A DNA stretch of 64,000 nucleotides, taken from NCBI GenBank assembly GCA_001829005.1, contig MIAG01000005.1:45224-109223 (forward strand), written 5' to 3'. The notes beneath the pieces are model-generated. The model saw nothing but the letters and a program-made list of their open reading frames with translations, did not search any database and was not told the origin of the DNA. Position 1 is the stretch's first letter, and the number at the start of each line of letters is the position of its first letter. The stretch comes from Sphingobacteriia bacterium RIFOXYC2_FULL_35_18 (GTDB lineage: Bacteria; Bacteroidota; Bacteroidia; Chitinophagales; Chitinophagaceae). Below, piece after piece: positions 44,599 through 55,767 of the stretch. A program made the position numbers and the translations under genes.

Positions 44599-47085
44599 AT
44601 GAACCGCCCTATCCTATCCTTATTATTTGCTTTGTTCCTGTTTACAGGTGCCCAGCAGGTTCAGGCACAGAACTATACCTATATGGGAACCTACAATTCA
44701 AGGGGTGTCCCAAACTATTTAGTTACGCCTAGAGATAGTGTAAGTCCATTCTTTAGAACATTAATTGAAATTACTTTACCAGAATACAGACCAGTCCCTG
44801 TTTATAACCCATTATTAATTTCACAAGAAAGAGTAAAAACCATTGGTGTAAACTGTCCTTCTGATGTATGGATTACTTTTATAGATGAAGGTGCCTCTTA
44901 TAGAAACGCATTAGGATATTATACATTTCCTAAAGGAAACCCGCCAACTACCGCTCCCAAGAATAAAGATATTACCATCATTTTCCCAAATGCCTCTAAA
45001 GCCGATTTTGGTGGATCATTGGTTGCTGGCGACAAAGTCTATTTAGGTAATTTTCCTGCCAATACCGAAATAGGATTTGTTTTAATTTCAGATGGATGGG
45101 ATGGTACTGATGTAAAGCAAGGGAATTGGAAAGTATATTCTAATCCTGCATTTAACCCTGAAAACAATGACTCATTAAAACAACATACGGTTATTGTTAG
45201 AGATACAATGACAAATCGATTAGTCATAGGTTTTGAAGATATCTTAAGAGATAGAAATGATTGTGATCAAGACTTTAACGACTTACTATTTTATGCTACA
45301 GTGAATCCAATTTTATGTACAGAAAAATTAGACTCTATTCCCATTTTTACAGAAGATGGTGGGGTCTCTTTTTCAGGTAATACAGGTGGCTTAGAAAGTA
45401 AAGGCCTTGGGAATAAAATTGCCAAGCGTGTAATGAATAAATTAAAAGAAGGCACGAACGGCCCTGTTAATTATGCACGAATGGAGAAACTCGATTTACA
45501 ACACAATCAAATTCGGAGCACTTCTCTAAGCAGAGAACTTACACTAGCCGATGTAATGCCAGATAGAATTCCAGAGGGAGCATATACCGCATTCGTTAGT
45601 ACACCTTCAGATATTCCAGGTATTACCAACGCCGTAGAAGTTAGGGCAATTGACTTTACTGAAAATGATACATGTAAAGCAGTAGCTTTCGCAACTAAAA
45701 CTTTAGGAGACGTTTACGATCATACTAAACCAATTTGCGATAGGCTCAAAGGAGCAGTATTACTCAATATGGACCAATTCAAATTGAGAAACTTAGTATT
45801 TACTAGATACGAATTAAAGCAAGAGAATGGGAATATTGAATATTCAATGAGTTTTTCAATAGGTAAAAAAGCAGGTAGAAATACCTTCTCTTTCCAAAGC
45901 AATTGGCTAAACGCAGATTTTGTAGGAGAAGACACCATGTACAACTACCAAGTATGGGGCGTTGCTCCTTATTTGTGTATTGATATGGCATTAAACGTTT
46001 TAGACAAACTAACGACTATTATGCCGGTAGAACCTATTGCTCCTCCAACTGCTTTACCGAGCACTTATATCCGGTATGGTAATAGAGACGGACTTAAGGT
46101 GAATTTATTGGTGGAAAATGAAACCAGCGCTACTACTGCTTATTTTGAAGTTGAAGAAAAATACAATGAACTTTCTCAACTAGAAACCAAACGTATTATT
46201 CCATTAACATTAAATCCAAATGGCAAAACAAATGTATCATTCCCAATGAATGATACCCATGAAAGCCTTATTTCAATGTACATTAATGGCAAACTCCAAG
46301 ATGTGGTGTACATGAGTGATGGTAGTTGGGATTTAGATTATGACTCTACTAAAACAGTTGTTGAATCCTATTCAATTACAAACGATACTGCTAGAAATTT
46401 CGCAGATACTTATCCAGTTTTTAGAGATGTTCAGTTTAAAGCAAAAACAGACAGTTATATTTCTGCTTACAAACTACTGAGAGGGGCTGCCGCAATGCAA
46501 GACCTTACAGCATACAAAACGATGAGCTTTAAAGCTAAAGGAGAAGGTGCCAGTCTTAAGATTACATTGGTTAAATATTCCATTACAAATTTTGCAAAAC
46601 AATTCAGTTATGTTTTGCCAATTGGTAAGGATTTAAAAGACTATACTATTAATCTATCGGATTTTACAGGCGAAGACCCGCTAGAAAAAATTAATGCGAA
46701 CGATATTACTACTGTGGTATTTGCTTTTGAAAATACGACTGGCATTAGTACTACTATTGATGCTGCAATTGCAGACATATTCTTCTCAAAAAAGCCCAAA
46801 GAATATCTTGAAAACCTAAAACAGGAAAAAATACATATTTTCCCTAACCCTACCACAGGAGGTAAATTCAGTGCAACATTCCGTTCTGATATTGACGCAT
46901 CACTTACGTTAAGGATTATTGATGCAGCAACAGGAAAAACCGTTTATAGCAAAATTGTACAAGCAATAAAGGGAGATAATGTAGTACCAGTTCAGTTTAA
47001 CTCTAAACCAGCTGCGGGAGTATATATGATTTCAGTAGAGGGGGCTGGTGTTAAGTACGGCACCAATAGAATAATTATGAATTAA
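44599..47085 (+). CDS. T9SS-exported protein with DUF4114 domain and shared C-terminal module
   Basis: 828 residues from MNRPILSLLFALFLFTGAQQ, a signal peptide cut before QNYT. A DUF4114-type domain covers about residues 90-240, with VWITFIDEGASYRNALGYYT and the acidic, probably calcium-binding IGFEDILRDRNDCDQDFNDL. From residue 265 (LESKGLGNKIAKRVMN) to about 740 it matches the module found in the 51607 protein, including VYDHTKPICDRLKG at residue 372. It ends in a T9SS sorting domain (HIFPNPTTGGKFSATF, ending RIIMN). The 30 codons upstream in frame are not signal-like. It faces the response-regulator operon tail to tail. Confidence 0.8.
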   Translation: MNRPILSLLFALFLFTGAQQVQAQNYTYMGTYNSRGVPNYLVTPRDSVSPFFRTLIEITLPEYRPVPVYNPLLISQERVKTIGVNCPSDVWITFIDEGASYRNALGYYTFPKGNPPTTAPKNKDITIIFPNASKADFGGSLVAGDKVYLGNFPANTEIGFVLISDGWDGTDVKQGNWKVYSNPAFNPENNDSLKQHTVIVRDTMTNRLVIGFEDILRDRNDCDQDFNDLLFYATVNPILCTEKLDSIPIFTEDGGVSFSGNTGGLESKGLGNKIAKRVMNKLKEGTNGPVNYARMEKLDLQHNQIRSTSLSRELTLADVMPDRIPEGAYTAFVSTPSDIPGITNAVEVRAIDFTENDTCKAVAFATKTLGDVYDHTKPICDRLKGAVLLNMDQFKLRNLVFTRYELKQENGNIEYSMSFSIGKKAGRNTFSFQSNWLNADFVGEDTMYNYQVWGVAPYLCIDMALNVLDKLTTIMPVEPIAPPTALPSTYIRYGNRDGLKVNLLVENETSATTAYFEVEEKYNELSQLETKRIIPLTLNPNGKTNVSFPMNDTHESLISMYINGKLQDVVYMSDGSWDLDYDSTKTVVESYSITNDTARNFADTYPVFRDVQFKAKTDSYISAYKLLRGAAAMQDLTAYKTMSFKAKGEGASLKITLVKYSITNFAKQFSYVLPIGKDLKDYTINLSDFTGEDPLEKINANDITTVVFAFENTTGISTTIDAAIADIFFSKKPKEYLENLKQEKIHIFPNPTTGGKFSATFRSDIDASLTLRIIDAATGKTVYSKIVQAIKGDNVVPVQFNSKPAAGVYMISVEGAGVKYGTNRIIMN

Positions 47086-47087
47086 TC

Positions 47088-47726
47088 TTAGATATTAAAT
47101 TCAACTAAAAATTTTACTAAAGCTGCAGGTGAACTCAACTGCAGCTTTTGCATTATATTCTTTCGATGTGTTTCAACAGTATAAATACTCAAGTGCAATG
47201 TATCTGCTATTTGTTGGTTGGTATAAGTCTGCTTCAAATACAACAAAATTTCTTTTTCTCTTTTCGTTAAATTGTATTTGCGTAAAAAAATATCCATTTT
47301 TTTGAAAGCATCTTCTTGATTAGGTTCATTTTGTAGATCAAAATGAGTCTTCCCGCTCACAACATCCATAATTGCTTTCATCAATTCATCCTTACTGCTA
47401 TTCTTTAAAATATACCCATCAGCTCCAGCCTTTTTAGCCTGTTCAACCACTTTTTCATCACTATAAGCAGAAAGCATTAATACTTTTGAAGAGCCAAAAG
47501 ACTGTTTGATATATTTAATGGTATCTAACCCATTCAAGTTGGGCATATTTACATCTAACAATATGAGGTCAATATTGGGTTGCTGGGTAAGTAAATATAA
47601 AAGCTGTTTGCCATCATTTGCAATACCTGCAATCTGCAAAAGATCGTTGCTACTTAAAATCATCTTTAAGCCCTCTACAAAAAGGGGATGATCATCAGCA
47701 ATCATTGTTTGAATCTTTTTTTCCAT
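47088..47726 (-). CDS. NarL/LuxR-type response regulator
   Basis: 212 residues from MEKKIQTMIADDHPLFVEGL (an ATG 15 nt upstream at 47741 is possible). The receiver has the acidic pair Asp11-Asp12, phosphoacceptor Asp58 in DLILLDVNMPNL and Lys in GYILKNSSKDEL. The LuxR/GerE helix-turn-helix covers the C-terminus: TKREKEILLYLKQTYTNQQI, then STYTVETHRKNIMQKL-type recognition helix (here HLSIYTVETHRKNIMQKL). No histidine kinase is adjacent. It is the last gene of the operon that starts at 51382 and is the natural candidate to bind the palindromes at 44498 and 51476 (inference). Confidence 0.92.
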   Translation of the reverse strand: MEKKIQTMIADDHPLFVEGLKMILSSNDLLQIAGIANDGKQLLYLLTQQPNIDLILLDVNMPNLNGLDTIKYIKQSFGSSKVLMLSAYSDEKVVEQAKKAGADGYILKNSSKDELMKAIMDVVSGKTHFDLQNEPNQEDAFKKMDIFLRKYNLTKREKEILLYLKQTYTNQQIADTLHLSIYTVETHRKNIMQKLQLSSPAALVKFLVEFNI

Positions 47727-47747
47727 ATTATCAGGTTTCAATATAAG

Positions 47748-49514
47748 TTATTTTTGGGGAACAAACATAGGACCAGCAAAACAGGGATACGCTTTTATTT
47801 TATACACCCCATTTTCATAATAGGTTTCTGCCCAACAATATTTTGATCCAGGCCGGTCGTCATTTTTCATTTGAGGTACATACCAAAGCACTAAATCGGT
47901 ATTTGCTGTACTTTCAGGAACAGCATTAATAAATTTTTCAGGACCCTGTTCATGATTGGTATTGCAACACGGACCTATCGTTACTAAATCGGTTTCGCCT
48001 TCATCTTTATTCAAGTGATTTTTGGTAAGATACAAATATGCATTATCTCCTTTACCACCATCATTAAACTGGCCCTTCCCTGGTTCTATGAAATAATTGC
48101 TGCTATTGTTTAAACTAATTTTATATTGATACCCACTAGAGTCATAAAGAGTAGAAGGTTTTTGCAATTGCCAATTTTCTTTGGTCCAGTGTTTCCAACC
48201 CTCTTGTGCATATTCATAAAAATTTTGCTCATTTCCTGCAAAAGAGATTCTAAAGACTGGCCTATACGTACCATTATTTCCACAACCTCTTCCAATACTA
48301 GCACAGGTAATTCTAAACCTTCCATCATTATAAAAAAAATATCGTTGAGAATAACTGTAATTACAAGGCCCCGGCCATAATTCTGAAAAGAATTTTTGTT
48401 CCAACATAAAACCTACAACTGAATCTCCTTCTACTATTTCCGCAATTTTAGGAGGATCGGTAGCCACTACTGCTGCCTGACTGTAAATTGGACAGCCAAC
48501 CGCATCACTGTAACCAAATCCATCTGTTCCAGAATAGCTAACATGCCAATCAACCAATTTGGCACTATTCAATATTCTTTTATCATTGAAACTTACATTG
48601 CTAATCTGCAATCCATCTGAAGCTGTGAGCAAGTAATCCATATTCCACCCATTTTTATTGATTGAATTTACTTTCTCACAGTAACAATCAGCTACTGTTT
48701 CATTCTGCAATTTTCTTTCAGTAACTACTGCTGCATCAGTACCTGTATTGGTCCACCTTAAACCAACCAAGCGATTATCAGTCAAATCTACAATTGCCCA
48801 CAAAGCCCTATTACCCTGAACAAATGTTGGGGCTACGCATAAATGTTGAGAGCGTTCACATTTGGTCCTGTTTAATGCAGTTTTAGTACTGCTCATGATG
48901 GGCTTTTGGGAATTAGGTTTAAACCCTAATGCTTTTTCTACTTCTGGTGCATTAATGGCGATTCTTTCAGCAAGCTGAATCAAAGATGATGGTATATCTG
49001 GCTGCATATCTGGATAATGATCTGCACTGACTAGTTTCAACTTAAAAATATCCACAATACCAATGGTGGTTAAATTATTGGCATAATTGTACATTTCAAC
49101 TCGCATTAAAGAACCGGGCAACGAAGTGATTCCTTTTTTTATATCCCCTGGCCTTGCTGGATAAACCCCAAATATTTCATTCCATAAAGGTTTCTTTGTT
49201 TTTAAATCAAATAAATAACGCGTAAAGAATGGATCAGCTAAGGCAATTTTTTGTGCCAGTATTGCTTGTTCTCCCCCTTTCTCTTTACACCATTTTACAG
49301 GTAAACTATCTTTTAAAATTTGTTCTATTTCTTTTTTTCTTTCAACAATAAACCAATTGGTATCAACTTTTGGTGAACTCATTAAACCTGCTCTATATTC
49401 ATTTAAATAAACAGCAGCTGGTTTTTTAGGCTTCGCTTTTTTTTGTTGTGCAGAAGCAATTATCTGGAACATACTTAACAGCATCACTAATGAAAATATT
49501 TTTATTTTAAGCAT
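47748..49514 (-). CDS. Secreted copper-amine-oxidase-like protein without copper ligands
   Basis: 588 residues; signal peptide MLKIKIFSLVMLLSMFQIIA then SAQQ. By eye the sequence follows the copper amine oxidase fold: an N3-like part (ALWAIVDLTDNRLVGLRW), the catalytic-domain start NGWNMDYLLTASDGLQISNV with HVSYSG, and a Cys-341 stretch resembling the GCDCLG region. The quinone-tyrosine motif is conserved as NYSY (Asn385-Tyr386), followed by RYFFYNDGRFRI. The usual copper HxH is Tyr417-Arg-Pro419, and the third His region (after DLVLW, 540-544) has none, so copper binding looks lost. Thirteen Cys suggest disulfides. It is 3 nt after the peroxidase gene. Family assignment is inference from pattern. 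Confidence 0.55.
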   Translation of the reverse strand: MLKIKIFSLVMLLSMFQIIASAQQKKAKPKKPAAVYLNEYRAGLMSSPKVDTNWFIVERKKEIEQILKDSLPVKWCKEKGGEQAILAQKIALADPFFTRYLFDLKTKKPLWNEIFGVYPARPGDIKKGITSLPGSLMRVEMYNYANNLTTIGIVDIFKLKLVSADHYPDMQPDIPSSLIQLAERIAINAPEVEKALGFKPNSQKPIMSSTKTALNRTKCERSQHLCVAPTFVQGNRALWAIVDLTDNRLVGLRWTNTGTDAAVVTERKLQNETVADCYCEKVNSINKNGWNMDYLLTASDGLQISNVSFNDKRILNSAKLVDWHVSYSGTDGFGYSDAVGCPIYSQAAVVATDPPKIAEIVEGDSVVGFMLEQKFFSELWPGPCNYSYSQRYFFYNDGRFRITCASIGRGCGNNGTYRPVFRISFAGNEQNFYEYAQEGWKHWTKENWQLQKPSTLYDSSGYQYKISLNNSSNYFIEPGKGQFNDGGKGDNAYLYLTKNHLNKDEGETDLVTIGPCCNTNHEQGPEKFINAVPESTANTDLVLWYVPQMKNDDRPGSKYCWAETYYENGVYKIKAYPCFAGPMFVPQK

Positions 49515-49517
49515 ATG

Positions 49518-50426
49518 CTATTGGTATTGAAATGGATTAAGTAATTCCTTATTGCTAAGATAACTGGTATCTGTTAATGCATTAAAAAAAGCAATTAATT
49601 CTTGTTGTTCTTTATCGTCTAAATTCAAGGAATATTTTTTTTCATAATGCTGAAATACTGCAAAAATGTTTTCCAATGAGCCGTCGTGCATATAGGGTGC
49701 TGTTATCATGACATTTCGCAATGAAGGTATTCTTATTCCAGAACTAAAATTTGCAACATTAGTTTCAAATGGTTGCTCCCAAACATGACATTTCATACAA
49801 CCTAATTTATTAGAGCCAAATAATTTCAAACCAGCTATTGCTTGTTGATTCATTACTTGTAAATTACCTTTTAGGTATTGATCATAAGGTGCATTATATG
49901 CAACCAACTGTTCCTCAAATGCAATGATTGCTTCCTGAATATTATGGGTATTGAAAGGATTTTTTTGATTAGGGTAAGCTAATTTGAAAAGTTGCTGATA
50001 ATTTGCATCAGTCGAAAATCGATTAAGTATTATTTGTTCCTGACCTTTCCACCCTAACTCGGTTGGATGTTCATTAAAAAAAGGAAATTGTATTTGCATT
50101 TGTAAACTAACAACTGCAGGGTTTGCCCAAGTATATTTGGTTCTATACTTTACATTTAATAAAGACAACGCGTTGTGCTTAACATTATAGCCATCTGCAC
50201 CTGATGAAGTTCTATAACCATCCGTAAAAGCCAAATAGGGATCGTGACATGATACACAACTCTTGGTTAAATTATAAGAAAGCCTGGTATCATAAAAAAG
50301 ATGACGACCTAAGTTGGCGCGTGCTTTTTCCAAGTTTTGCTTTGCAGCACTTTCTTCATTTATAAGAAAGAGGCCAACACAAACTGCGGCTATAATCAAC
50401 CCAATAATACGCTGCTTTTGTTGCAT
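49518..50426 (-). CDS. Di-heme cytochrome c peroxidase/MauG family protein
   Basis: 302 residues with an N-terminal anchor or signal (IIGLIIAAVCVGLFLI). Two c-type heme sites are present: CVSCH at residues 57-61 in LGRHLFYDTRLSYNLTKSC and CMKCH at 210-214. The family C-terminal motif RIPSLRNVMITAPYMHDGSL holds Met246-His247 near the second heme; PTELG (about 121-125) fits the catalytic Glu loop. Members detoxify peroxide (CcpA) or make protein-derived quinone cofactors (MauG). Lying between a beta-propeller gene (2-nt gap) and the amine-oxidase-like gene (3-nt gap), a maturation role is plausible but unproven. Confidence 0.85.
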   Translation of the reverse strand: MQQKQRIIGLIIAAVCVGLFLINEESAAKQNLEKARANLGRHLFYDTRLSYNLTKSCVSCHDPYLAFTDGYRTSSGADGYNVKHNALSLLNVKYRTKYTWANPAVVSLQMQIQFPFFNEHPTELGWKGQEQIILNRFSTDANYQQLFKLAYPNQKNPFNTHNIQEAIIAFEEQLVAYNAPYDQYLKGNLQVMNQQAIAGLKLFGSNKLGCMKCHVWEQPFETNVANFSSGIRIPSLRNVMITAPYMHDGSLENIFAVFQHYEKKYSLNLDDKEQQELIAFFNALTDTSYLSNKELLNPFQYQ

Positions 50427-50428
50427 GA

Positions 50429-51382
50429 TTAATTATAATTGATTAATCCCCATTTTTTTTCTTTTGCCAACCAAATAAAAGTATACAAGGTTTCAGGTTT
50501 TTCACTAGCCGCTTGTAGGTTATAATTAAATGCAGTTCCACTCACCAATAATTGGCTCCCACTAAATTTTATTTTCCTTGCTTTGTCATCGCCTCTAGGA
50601 CCATACCCTTCTAAACTTAACTCTTTACGAATGGTTTTTTTCTCCATTTTACCTTTTGTATTTACCACTACTGAAAAAATATTCCCAGTTCTAGTACTTC
50701 CATAATACAATCGCTTTTTCCTAGATTCATCTAAAGCAAAACCTAAACCCATTGCATCAAAATTAGTGATTGAATCTATTGTCTTTTTATTCCTTGGATT
50801 AATCATATAAATAACACCACGCTCATTGTATCTGTCTGATCCTGCTACTGTTGACACTACTAAAAAATGGTCTTGGCAGTCATAATTAATTCCCAACAAA
50901 CCATAAGGATTATGAGAACTCGGTTTAGCCGCAAAAGGTAAATTAACCCACTCATTCATTTCACCATTAATAGCATCAATTTTATAAATGGTATTGAGCT
51001 TTTCTGTTTGATTGTATAACATGGAAATCAGTGGTGCAGGAACCGTATAAGCATTACCTAGCTGATCAAAACTGATGGTAGATAAATAACCTGCTGTTTT
51101 CCAACTTGGATGTTGGTATATGTCCATTTTAGGCGTTTGTGCAGTAGGAGTCGCTTGTCCTGTTTTTTTTTCAAAAGCAATTAAACTTATACCGATATAT
51201 GTTTTTTCTGATGTGCTGAGGGCTGTCCATAATGGATCATATCCCAATGTCCTAATAAATGCAGGCTCTTGCTGACAAGGTTTTATTTCTCTTTGCGCGA
51301 ATCCATTATTGGGAAAAATGAACAACCAAAGTACCAACAATTCCATCCACCATTTCATTGTACAAAGTGAATATTTCATCAT
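50429..51382 (-). CDS. Secreted beta-propeller-like protein
   Basis: 317 residues with a signal peptide (MKWWMELLVLWLFIFPNNGF then AQRE). The start could be 51382 or an internal ATG at 51358. The mature protein has repeated beta strand patterns with Tyr-x-Ile and Asp-containing turns (AYTVPAPLISMLYNQTEKLN, NTIYKIDAINGEMNEWVNLP, GVIYMINPRNKKTIDSITNF, KRLYYGSTRTGNIFSVVVNT), like an SMP-30/NHL-type propeller. It is the first gene of the four-gene operon. MauB of methylamine dehydrogenase is also a propeller, which is the reason for the comparison, not a homology claim. Confidence 0.65.
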   Translation of the reverse strand: MMKYSLCTMKWWMELLVLWLFIFPNNGFAQREIKPCQQEPAFIRTLGYDPLWTALSTSEKTYIGISLIAFEKKTGQATPTAQTPKMDIYQHPSWKTAGYLSTISFDQLGNAYTVPAPLISMLYNQTEKLNTIYKIDAINGEMNEWVNLPFAAKPSSHNPYGLLGINYDCQDHFLVVSTVAGSDRYNERGVIYMINPRNKKTIDSITNFDAMGLGFALDESRKKRLYYGSTRTGNIFSVVVNTKGKMEKKTIRKELSLEGYGPRGDDKARKIKFSGSQLLVSGTAFNYNLQAASEKPETLYTFIWLAKEKKWGLINYN

Positions 51383-51606: not shown

Positions 51607-54600
51607 ATGGAAGCTATTTACACATTAATCAACCCAAAAGCTAACGCGTCAAAACGTTACATATTGTTCGCTTTGTTGGTTGTTTTGGCTCAATTAGGAA
51701 TAATTGCCAATACTAACGCTCAAGTTAGTGGAACTGTTTACAGAGACTTTAATGCAAATGGCGCTAAGAACAACAATGCATCTTATAATGAGCCTGGTGC
51801 TGCTGGCATCACCATTAAAGCCTATGATAATGCAGGGACTTTGTTAGGAACAACTACTTCAGGAATTAATGGCGCATTTAGTTTTTCTGCGGGTATTATT
51901 CCTGCTGCAACTAAAGTTAGATTGGAATTTAGCGGATGGCAGTCATCAGATTTTACTGCGCCATTCGGTTCTAATAATAAAACAAGTGTTCAATTTGTAA
52001 CCGCACCTTCAACAACTGCAGATTTTGGCATTAACTACCCAGGCGATTATATTGATAATTTAAATGCAAGGATTATACTTCCTACATATGCAAACGGAAA
52101 TAGCCAAGTAGACAATGGCAATTGGTTCGATGCTAAAAATGGAGACGGAAGTTTTGCGTTCAATTATGATGGTGTTGCTGCTGCAAATGTTATTGCAGAT
52201 ATGGGTCAAATTGGTTCTGTTTGGGCTACTGCATACAGCAGAAAAGCAGATAAAGTATTTTATGCTGCATTTGTTAAGCGCCATGTGTCTATGGGCCCTT
52301 TAGGTATGAACGGAATTTATGTAACCAACAATGCAAAAAGTACAACCAATAAAACCAATACAACCAATTTTGTAAACTTAAATGCGGTAAACCCTGCATT
52401 TGATGCAGGAGATATTCCTGGTAGAAGTTTTAGCCCGGGAGATTTTAATAAAACACAACCCAATAACGATCCTTTAGCTTTTACCGAAATAGGAAAAAAA
52501 GGAATTGGCGGAATGGCTATCTCTGATGATGGTCGTTATTTATATTTAATCAATTTAAATGATCGTAAACTTTGGAGAGTTGATATTGGTGTAAATGGAA
52601 CTGCCCCAACGCTTGCAACTCAAATAGTTTCTTACAATGCATTTCCTGTTACAGAAGGCAATAGCAGTTTCAGACCTTTTGCAGTTAAGTTTTATAGAGG
52701 CGCTATTTATGTGGGTGGTGTATTAGATGGTGTTAAACCTGACAACTCAACTGTTGATAGAGCTGAACTGAAAATGGTCGTATTAAAAGTAGATGCAACT
52801 GCAACTCCAGGTGCTGAAACATTTACAACTGTTTTAGATGCTCCTTTAACTTATAACAGAAAAGCCAACATGAATACAGGCTTTAATGTAAACCATAATA
52901 CCGATTATGTAGACCCTAATGGAACCATTCCTGCAGCTACAACAAGCCATGGTTCTTGGCATCCATGGGCAAGAACATTTACTGAATTAACGGTAGTAGG
53001 AAATACTGGTACAGCCATTTATCCTCAACCAATGCTTTCAAGCATCGAATTTAATCCCGCAGATGGGTCAATGATTTTGGGCTTGATGGACCGTACAGGT
53101 CATCAAACAGGTAACCAAAATAGAGGCACCACTGGCACCAGTTTATTTACTGGTAATGCTGCTGGTGATATTTTAAAAGCAAGTAACAACGGAACTTATA
53201 CCAGCTTTACTTTAGAAAATAATGGTTCTGATGGAACCAATACTTCAGCAGGTGCAGGAAATGGTGAAGGCCCTGGTGGTGGAGAATTTTACTTTACAGA
53301 TCGATTTTCTGCTGGTTTAGGTGGCACTTTAGGAATTGGAAATACCTCAACGGGAAAATTATTTATTGACCACGAAGAAACAAGTACTGGTTCTATTCTT
53401 AACTTTCCTGGAAAAGAATTAATAAGCACCGCATTTGACCCAATTACAACCTGGTATACCGGTGGGGTTCGTTATTACAATAACAGCAATGGTGTTGCCT
53501 TAAATGGTAAAGTATTGTATGAAGGAAACGACGTTAGTGTTTTTGGTAAAGCAAATGGTTTAGGTGATTTAGAAATCATTACTGCACCCGCTCCAATTGA
53601 AATTGGAAACAGAGTTTGGTTCGATGTAGATGGAGATGGAATACAAGACGCAGAAGAAATTGGCATAGCTGGCGTTACCGTTAGTTTAGTTCAAGGCTCA
53701 ACTGTAATTGCAACGGCAACTACCGATGCAGAAGGCAACTATATTTTTTCTTCAGATCCAAATGGAGTAAATACCGCATCAGCTATATATAATATTACTC
53801 AAATTCAACCAGGAGCTGCATTAATCATTCGCATAGCAAATGCAACAGGAACAAGCGTTCAAACCCCATTAAGTACATACGAATTAACTGTAATTAATAA
53901 TGGCGGTTTAGATATTGATAATGACTTAAGAGACAGCGATGCAGCCCTTACTGGAAATGATGCAGAAATAAGTATTACAGCTGGAATAGCTGGAGAAAAC
54001 AATCATACATACGACTTTGGATTTGTTACCATTGGCGGTGTTGGTGGTGGTGGTGGTGGTGGAGTTGAAAGCAAAAGCTTAGGTGACGCCATTGCTTACA
54101 GAGTATTTAACAGAGCTGTTAAAAGTGAGCAAGGACCTGTTGACTACACAAAACTTCCAACTCCTGATCAATACAACAGATATGCAGGTGCGTCTGTGGG
54201 AACATCATTAAAACTTCAAGACATTTTACCTACTAAATTGTCTAATGGTTATAAATCTTTTGTTTCTACTCCAAACGATATTATTTCTATCACCAATGCT
54301 AAAGAAATTTTATCTATTGATTTTGTAAGCAATAATATTTCTAAAGCAGTAGCTTTTGGTACTAGAACAGTTGGGCAGGTTTATGATCATACCAAAGCAA
54401 TTTGTGATCGTTTAAAAGGATTTGAATTGATTTCTTTGAAAACAATCAATGTAAAAGGATACGAGTTAGTTCAATACAATTTGAAAAATAATAATGGAGA
54501 AATTGAGTATGCTACCAGCTTTATCATTGGTGCAGAAAGTGGCAGAAATAACTACACTATTCAATCAAATTGGCTAAATAAAGATTATACCTTAGAAGAG

Positions 54601-55767
54601 ATGATGTACAATATTCAGCTTTGGGGTGGGTCTCCTAGCTTAGTGATTGAAATGGCTACCGACATTATTACTCGTTTGAATACAGGATTACCCGTGGTTG
54701 CAATTCCAAATACTGCAGGTTTGCCTAATGCATATTTTACTGCAGGCAAAAGATCTGACGAAAATGTAACATTAACACTTCAAAACAATTTAAGCGCAAC
54801 CACTGGCTACTTTGAAATTAGCGACAGAGCTAATGAGCAGTCTACTACTCAAGTGAAAAGAACAATTCCTTTTACTGCAAAAGCCAATGGAATTACAAGT
54901 GTTTCAATACCAACCAATGATTTATTTGAATCAACCATTAATTTATACATTAATGGAAAATTAGAAGACCAGGTATTCATGGCTGATGGTGCATGGGGCG
55001 TAGATTATAACACCAATACCACTAGTCTTAAAAAGTTTGTAGTAACCAACAGTACTGCTCCAAAAGCAAAAGATGAATTTAGTGTATTTAGAAATGCTGA
55101 AATTGCTGGAACTACTCCTGATTATATTACCGTGTATAAATTACTGAGAGCAGGTGGAACACCACAAGATCTTAGTAGCTTTAAATCTTTAAAATTCACT
55201 GCTACTGGTAATGCTCCAGTGGTAATAACGCTGGTAAAACAATCTATCAAAAATTGGGATGACCAGTACAATATACAGTTACCAATTAGCACCGAAACAA
55301 AAGACTATGCTATTGGGCTAGAAGATTTTAAATCAACTGCATTTAATAGCAACATTGATTTAAAAGATATCAGTTCCATCATTATCACAATTGTTCCTCC
55401 AAATAAGGGGAAAAGTACCGATTTACAGCTTGCGGTAAGTAATATCTCTTTTAGTAAAGAAGATATGAACTATATCAATAGCTTAAAAGAAGTTAGCATG
55501 AGTGCTTTCCCTAATCCAGTTACTGGCAATAAGTTCAATGTTCGCTTTAAAAGCGATAATAGCAAAACGCTACAATTAAAAATAAGCGATGGTGTTACCG
55601 GAAGAGTAATATTAACCAAGCAAGTAAATGCTATTAGAGGAGAAAATATCGTTCCCGTTGAAATGGAAAATAATGGAGCTCAAAAAGTTTTGATTATTAA
55701 TTTAGATGGAACAGGGTTAGACAACACTAAGTACAAAGCAACTAAAATACTAGCTGGTAAATATTAA
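51607..55767 (+). CDS. Large T9SS-exported protein with SdrD-B repeats, propeller and shared module
   Basis: 1386 residues. A long-n-region signal peptide ends near NTNA before QVSG (about residue 39). An SdrD B-type domain follows ([20 protein letters not shown]), then a propeller-like region ([20 protein letters not shown]), a second SdrD B-type domain near residues 664-790 ([19 protein letters not shown]), a Gly linker encoded by GGT repeats (about 810-819), and from residue 820 the module shared with the 44599 protein, with [14 protein letters not shown] at 925. The end is a T9SS sorting domain ([15 protein letters not shown]). It starts divergently from the propeller operon and ends before a hairpin terminator. 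Confidence 0.82.

Follow-up and report, generated by a model that had tools for sequence, protein, structure and literature searches.

The standard example of a protein that builds its own cofactor, and needs copper to do so, is the copper amine oxidase; the di-heme enzyme MbnH makes kynurenine in its partner protein MbnP. In the parts of PMC3382800 drawn on here, the tyrosine of the T-x-x-N-Y-D/E motif in copper amine oxidases is converted to topaquinone by copper and oxygen, the copper is bound by three strictly conserved histidines (431, 433, and 592 in AGAO), a conserved tyrosine (Tyr305 in HPAO) hydrogen-bonds the cofactor, and an aspartate acts as the base. Topaquinone formation in HarA required copper (PMC6345859, in excerpt), and plant relatives of amine oxidases without the active-site motif are known (PMC12058724, in excerpt). 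Pairs of MbnP and MbnH have been described, and the related case of MopE has kynurenine in its copper site (PMC3621798, in excerpt). Here, we compare with these systems a four-gene operon at 47088-51382 of a 64,000-nucleotide stretch from Sphingobacteriia bacterium RIFOXYC2_FULL_35_18 (contig MIAG01000005.1, positions 45,224 to 109,223), which is called the window throughout. On the minus strand, it encodes a beta-propeller protein (PROP, gene 1, 50429..51382, 317 aa), a di-heme c-type enzyme of the CCP_MauG family and MbnH type (HEME, gene 2, 49518..50426, 302 aa), a protein of the copper-amine-oxidase fold without the copper ligands (AOL, gene 3, 47748..49514, 588 aa), and a response regulator (RR, gene 4).

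The solid result is a conserved copperless protein of the amine-oxidase fold that is accompanied by a near-constant propeller and, in Bacteroidota, by a dedicated MbnH-type enzyme. Families, predicted folds, residue conservation, loss of the copper ligands, linkage, and co-occurrence are what the analysis shows. Based on them, AOL is read as derived from the amine-oxidase fold and free of copper, with a tyrosine site that HEME may modify oxidatively in Bacteroidota, a tentative reading with somewhat less than an even chance of being right. An earlier note on this DNA had reported four same-strand genes with gaps of 2, 3, and about 6-21 nt, which is exact on recheck (2, 3, and 6 or 21 nt), and its gene names agree with the matches found: CCP_MauG, Cu_amine_oxid (26.2 bits vs a cut-off of 27), Response_reg with GerE, and a propeller model. 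It had also proposed an uncharacterised envelope system, in keeping with the apparent export of PROP, HEME, and AOL, whose signals were assessed by eye, without a predictor; a lipobox-like pattern is present in 47/90 AOLs.

A single scan across GTDB genomes yielded 171 relatives of AOL, of which the best 80 were fetched and examined (64 non-Chloroflexota and 16 Chloroflexota loci). Residue counts in AOL refer to 85 distinct sequences out of 90 loci, window included; the collection of AOL frames passed over L001, L055, L057, L060, L089, L109, and L115 as well as short, X-containing, and identical frames, and L039, L041, and L051 were removed by hand from sets A4-A6 and L040 and L046 from A4. 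The AOL of the window scored 26.2 bits against the Pfam model Cu_amine_oxid (PF01179), under the gathering cut-off of 27, and the score reaches 27.3 when its neighbours are in the frame as well. All 74 relatives scanned matched PF01179 at E<=0.1, the best at 1.5e-9, and hhalign aligned the AOL profile to seven true amine oxidases with E 1.2e-5 and a probability of 81. The AlphaFold model of AOL (predicted local distance difference test, pLDDT, 82.4; predicted template-modelling score, pTM, 0.81) was matched to amine oxidases by Foldseek (E 4.2e-19, TM 0.49 for this predicted model), and it superposed on the Arthrobacter amine oxidase 1avk with Z 22.0 and 5.0 A over 421 residues in the range 80-588. 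Identity to copper amine oxidases is about 15%. The fold assignment rests on Pfam, the profile-profile comparison, and the predicted model, because searching the AOL sequence against solved structures gave chance matches only. Together, these comparisons indicate that AOL is a true though distant homologue of copper amine oxidases.

The window AOL is 98% identical to the AOL of a Sphingobacteriia metagenome-assembled genome (MAG) and 81-96% identical to those of six Sediminibacterium records, with further Sediminibacterium AOLs at 67-70%; the source genome is thus Sediminibacterium-like. A decaying pseudogene was considered and rejected, given 78 distinct frames of at least 540 aa; broken genes were met at L060 (AOL in two pieces) and L115 (HEME and PROP genes in pieces). 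No AOL was found in the plasmid collection searched.

The former copper/topaquinone site was located by alignment. N385-Y386-S387-Y388 (48351..48362, minus strand, as are all AOL features below) takes the position of the topaquinone motif and is aligned by two methods with N-Y-D-Y of true amine oxidases. Tyr386 and Tyr388 occur in 85/85 distinct AOLs, and position 385 is Asn in 78/85 and Ser in 7/85. The T-x-x-N-Y-D/E motif is otherwise relaxed: its Thr, three places before the Asn, is found in 17/85 AOLs, and an acidic residue (D/E) follows the cofactor Tyr in just 3/85. Cys384, Asp337, Cys341, and Tyr417 are invariant. Tyr327 aligns well with the helper Tyr of amine oxidases, and the invariant Asp337 (48504..48506) is the candidate for the catalytic-base Asp; its alignment to the base needs a 4-residue gap, since it stands 10 residues after Tyr327 vs 14 in true amine oxidases (a 4-residue deletion between the two). 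At the position of the H-x-H copper ligands lies G415-T416-Y417 (48264..48272; GTYRPVFRI vs HQHFFNFRI, ungapped), with Gly in 83/85 and Ala in 2/85 at 415 and Tyr in 85/85 at 417. Asn551 (47862..47864; WYVPQMKN vs WYTMGVTH, ungapped) takes the position of the third copper His and is Asn in 83 of the 84 AOLs with a residue there. No His was thus found at the three aligned copper-ligand positions in the 85 distinct AOLs, one of which is gapped at the third. The seven true amine oxidases of the phylum (set A7, which excludes L035, L036, and L038 among its search matches) keep N-Y-D-Y, D310, H448, H450, and H610. An ordinary copper amine oxidase is therefore rejected, the copper ligands being absent, and the set Gly415/Tyr417/Asn551 suggests a fixed substitution rather than decay. 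Only two His columns of the AOL family are conserved to at least 90% (H224 and H324), compared with ten Cys and ten Trp positions. The earlier note had expected a quinone-bearing partner; AOL does keep the tyrosine motif that gives rise to a quinone in copper amine oxidases, and the loss of the copper ligands had been overlooked.

A separate observation concerns L035, a full-length Bacteroidota member of PF01179 in which N-C-D-Y replaces N-Y-D-Y and W-Q-Q replaces H-x-H. Judged from its alignment, it would be a second, different degenerate amine oxidase, so site loss in the superfamily appears not to be unique to AOL.

HEME matches CCP_MauG (PF03150) with E=3.8e-40. The earlier note had called it MauG-like; among solved enzymes, MbnH is closer than MauG. 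Against solved structures, the HEME family profile scored 374 bits with MbnH (6e1c), whose known partner is MbnP, 184 bits with peroxidases, and 152 bits with MauG, and MbnH is also the best solved match for the window HEME alone. The same scores (184 vs 374 bits) led to the rejection of a plain cytochrome c peroxidase, an identity that, along with an unmodified partner, the note had named as refuting its proposal. Against curated models, HEME gave 115.9 bits with TIGR03791 (MauG; cut-off 443.85) and 252.6 bits with TIGR04039 (MbnH; cut-off 362.85). Beside the latter shortfall stands the fact that the window HEME is without two segments present in longer relatives, both CxxCH motifs and the axial Tyr position being retained. 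This short form (302-310 aa) is found in the window and its nearest relatives L039 and L041-L046, other relatives having mostly 350-390 aa; it is common to several species, and a pseudogene was rejected on that ground.

The MauG residues Gln103, Pro107, Glu113, Trp93, and Tyr294 are described in PMC6405878 (in excerpt), which also reports that BthA without the inter-heme Trp still forms bis-Fe(IV) and that replacement of the axial Tyr abolishes it. The window HEME has two CxxCH, Q111, P115, E123, W100, and Y261; W100/Y261 and the correspondence to MauG residues were assigned from spacing and from alignments with a peroxidase and with MbnH, not from one with MauG itself. The distal Q/P/E set and the two CxxCH are kept in 50-51/51 HEME family sequences. 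The window's genome holds an ordinary MbnP-MbnH pair elsewhere (L147 5892-7675, one-base overlap), and its sole PF20243 match is this kind of protein, an MbnP (131.6 bits) that adjoins another MbnH-like gene, not HEME. In the HEME tree, the AOL-type clade (99/98) leaves out the MbnP-linked MbnH of the same genome; long branches are flagged for that MbnP-linked row and for L149, L114, L059, and L132.

The AOL hosts among the best 80 of 171 are, as named in their records and outside Chloroflexota, Chitinophagaceae, Ferruginibacter, Saprospiraceae, Dyadobacter, others, and one MAG labelled Acidobacteria, and, within Chloroflexota, Anaerolineae and Herpetosiphon. Linkage was counted in full loci, those in which 2.6 kb or more of DNA flanks AOL on either side, and a gene within 2.5 kb was taken as near. 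PROP is near AOL in 41/45 full non-Chloroflexota loci, HEME in 39/45, and both in 38/45; in full Chloroflexota loci, the counts are 12/12 for PROP and 0/12 for HEME. The arrangement is not due to chance, as this linkage in related genomes demonstrates, and AOL with PROP is the core of the system in Bacteroidota and Chloroflexota. The earlier note's expectation that the four genes are neighbours in related genomes thus stands for PROP and HEME; it falls for RR, which lies by AOL in just 18/90 loci, all in one clade. Of the two main gene orders, PROP-HEME-AOL belongs to the clade of the window and HEME-AOL-PROP to the other loci, with exceptions at L093 (HEME last) and L110 (HEME on the opposite strand). 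HEME is not near AOL in six full non-Chloroflexota loci (L079, L081, L090, L096, L104, and L116), and in five of these six genomes an AOL-type HEME is encoded at another place; in the tree, four of the five fall within the clade and one branches at its base. Non-Chloroflexota L040, L069, L074, and L089, with no visible di-heme gene at the locus, were excluded from the genome-wide di-heme search.

Co-occurrence was examined in a family sample of 195 genomes and a phylum sample of 395 genomes, which overlap, by scoring up to 10 and up to 5 candidates per genome, respectively, with a HEME profile (A6) made from AOL-linked di-heme genes. AOL is present in 9/195 family-sample genomes, and an AOL-type HEME was found in 9/9 of them. 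Eight of the nine score at least 306 bits; the ninth (G122) gave 262 bits in the family scoring and 330 with the whole frame scored. Among the 186 genomes lacking AOL, the best score is 264 bits and none reaches 300. In the phylum sample, 5/5 true AOL genomes score at least 306 bits and 0/390 others do, the best being 283; a match in G311 was rejected as an AOL relative, its frame resembling its three neighbours, which we take to be membrane permeases. Because most positives were rows of the original profile, a circularity, a held-out profile of 33 rows was built with none from the co-occurrence positive genomes, and whole frames of the fetched loci were rescored with it. AOL genomes then gave 333-487 bits, unlinked and second HEME copies 315-421 bits, and 45 loci from AOL-lacking genomes at most 279 bits.

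PROP has no Pfam match for the window protein. AlphaFold predicts a beta-propeller with confidence (pLDDT 92.5), and no one type stands out among the lactonase, DFPase, LDLR-type, and WD propellers that the model resembles (Z about 15-16); the propeller is real but generic. No subunit of methylamine dehydrogenase (MADH) or quinohemoprotein amine dehydrogenase (QHNDH) is among the 50 matches listed in each of two PROP structure comparisons, a listing that excludes nothing. PROP is present in one copy per genome in 15/16 genomes tested, also where it is unlinked to AOL (L081 and L104); the exception is G122, a genome 85% complete. At L079, PROP is a contig-end fragment, and L080, where PROP is missing at the locus, was outside the genome-wide PROP search.

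RR (47088..47741, minus strand, 217 aa) is a NarL/LuxR-type response regulator with Response_reg and GerE domains. Its start is TTG, with an alternative ATG 5 codons further in. It lies next to AOL, or nearly so, only in Sediminibacterium or near relatives, and owing to this restriction it was rejected as a core part of the system. Two large plus-strand genes, 44599-47085 and 51607-55767, flank the operon. Their products share 42.7% identity over a C-terminal region of some 565 aa behind a DUF4114 or SdrD-B front, and that of 44599-47085 gives a weak match to a type IX secretion system sorting tail (22.8 bits vs a cut-off of 23). This region lies near the trio in just 23/90 loci, some of them one genome counted twice, and the surface-protein domain was accordingly rejected as a general partner.

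From these data a mechanism can be sketched. The operon would supply a system of three apparently exported proteins, in the periplasm or at the surface. In AOL the organic-cofactor side of the site, namely Tyr386 in N-Y-x-Y, Asn385, the helper Tyr327, and probably Asp337, is kept, and the copper side has been swapped for the fixed Gly415/Tyr417/Asn551. Topaquinone normally arises through copper and oxygen, a route that should be closed to AOL, and in Bacteroidota HEME would most likely take over the role of copper in maturation. With hydrogen peroxide, HEME would reach a high-valent di-iron state and draw electrons at a distance from an AOL residue, most likely in the W380-P-x-x-C384-N-Y386-x-Y388 stretch; the resulting cofactor might be a quinone, a Cys-Tyr link, or something akin to these. 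PROP would be the constant partner, structural or substrate-facing. HEME would probably oxidise AOL; whether a residue is modified and which one, the part played by peroxide, and the nature of the substrate are matters of inference here. The fuller proposal, that the fold gave up copper and its self-made topaquinone and that a Tyr- or Cys-Tyr-derived cofactor is installed at the old topaquinone site by HEME in Bacteroidota and by another route in Chloroflexota, is doubtful.

Several observations weigh against oxidation of AOL by HEME. All 16 Chloroflexota loci have AOL and PROP with no di-heme gene alongside. A genome-wide search of 12 of the 16 genomes (L091, L097, L102, and L117 being outside it) found no HEME of AOL-type strength, the best match reaching 256 bits. 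Three Herpetosiphon genomes (L106, searched with A2, and L112 and L113, searched with A6) gave no match to the HEME profile, and in these three, one of them a complete record, there is also no PF03150 match, the positive control having three. The other nine gave either a protein of about 750 residues (six genomes) or weaker matches, all at most 256 bits; this protein, seen at L128 and L141-L145, has a di-heme domain like that of MbnH close to the N-terminus. When AOL positions were sought that are conserved to at least 93% in HEME-bearing loci and in less than half of Chloroflexota or none of Herpetosiphon, seven were obtained, none of which is Tyr, Trp, Cys, or His. By this measure, no conserved Tyr, Trp, Cys, or His of AOL is changed where HEME is missing, and therefore the conserved site is not HEME-dependent everywhere. 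In the AOL tree (which excludes L115, L055, L089, L109, L040, and identical rows), Chloroflexota AOLs form one side of a branch (Shimodaira-Hasegawa-like approximate likelihood ratio test, SH-aLRT, 99), so that a single gain or loss of HEME on that branch would be enough. The earlier note had HEME maturing or re-oxidising AOL; as a universal AOL maturase it cannot be maintained. Outside Chloroflexota, the best di-heme match in the MAG L096 is just 207 bits. Some members of the HEME family depart from the MauG hallmarks: the inter-heme position is Trp in 38/51, and the axial-ligand position is Tyr in 39/51 and Phe in 9/51. Finally, G044 and G133 each have one AOL match and a second, solitary AOL-type HEME (408 bits; L207 8442-9491 and L208 7015-8055), so HEME may have other targets.

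These points bear on what else the trio could be. AOL might be a working redox or binding enzyme that needs no HEME to mature, with HEME in Bacteroidota serving as a peroxidase or electron acceptor that clears hydrogen peroxide or re-oxidises AOL. The three Herpetosiphon genomes, with AOL, PROP, the same conserved residues, and no PF03150 match, suit this explanation; a less demanding role would likewise agree with the change of the axial Tyr to Phe (9/51) and the missing inter-heme Trp (13/51), and the distal peroxide-pocket residues are kept. However, HEME is nearest to MbnH, a modifying enzyme, and not to peroxidases, and the explanation gives no account of how AOL would gain a cofactor without copper; we regard it as unlikely. 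Alternatively, AOL could be a non-catalytic binder of a metal, an amine, or a surface ligand, comparable to copper-binding MopE, its tyrosines being structural or ligand-binding and HEME oxidising another residue, for example Trp to kynurenine. A kynurenine is part of the copper site of MopE, whose partner is a similar di-heme protein (PMC3621798, in excerpt), and plant amine-oxidase relatives without the active-site motif exist (PMC12058724, in excerpt). The fixed residues in place of the copper ligands and the ten Cys and ten Trp positions conserved to at least 90% would also fit a binder, but the joint retention of Tyr327, Asn385, Tyr386, and possibly Asp337 goes beyond the needs of a scaffold and makes this distinctly unlikely. 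A quinoprotein dehydrogenase like MADH or QHNDH, the model of the earlier note, has the same kinds of parts (a propeller, a di-heme protein, and a presumed quinone protein), but it is very improbable: Pfam detected no MADH or QHNDH small subunit among six proteins (four of the operon and two neighbours), the MauG model gave 115.9 against 443.85, AOL has the amine-oxidase fold, and the PROP matches listed are generic. The quinoprotein idea itself is partly supported and points the right way.

If the oxidation of AOL by HEME is true, MbnH-type enzymes would gain a new kind of partner. The AOL family, which is widespread, would offer a natural test of whether a cofactor of the copper amine oxidase kind can be made by another enzyme, and the Chloroflexota AOLs without HEME are its built-in control. 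No report of the trio or of a copperless bacterial amine-oxidase family was found in the open-access literature, most subscription papers lying outside the search, and the main text of a 2025 survey (PMC12058724, in the portion available) has no word beginning with Bacteroid, Chloroflex, or MauG.

Compared with known systems, HEME shares two CxxCH and the distal Q/P/E pocket with bacterial di-heme cytochrome c peroxidases, whereas the aligned peroxidase has Met where the HEME family has Tyr (39/51). The operon is like MauG/MADH and QHNDH in combining a propeller, a di-heme protein, and a presumed modified protein, but the genes scanned include no homologue of the small subunit, and HEME is far from MauG. 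MbnH/MbnP (TIGR04039/TIGR04052; 6e1c) is nearest to HEME in sequence, and both di-heme genes stand beside that of an apparently exported partner; HEME differs in that its partner is AOL and not MbnP, in belonging to a separate clade, and in scoring below the TIGR04039 cut-off. With copper amine oxidases (PF01179; Arthrobacter AGAO and E. coli), AOL shares the predicted fold, the N-Y-x-Y motif, and the helper Tyr. It differs from them in the loss of the three copper His, in the rarity of an acidic residue after the cofactor Tyr (3/85), in a loop from cofactor Tyr to ligand site of 29 residues against 54-60, and in its ten conserved Cys, its propeller neighbour, and, often, its di-heme neighbour.

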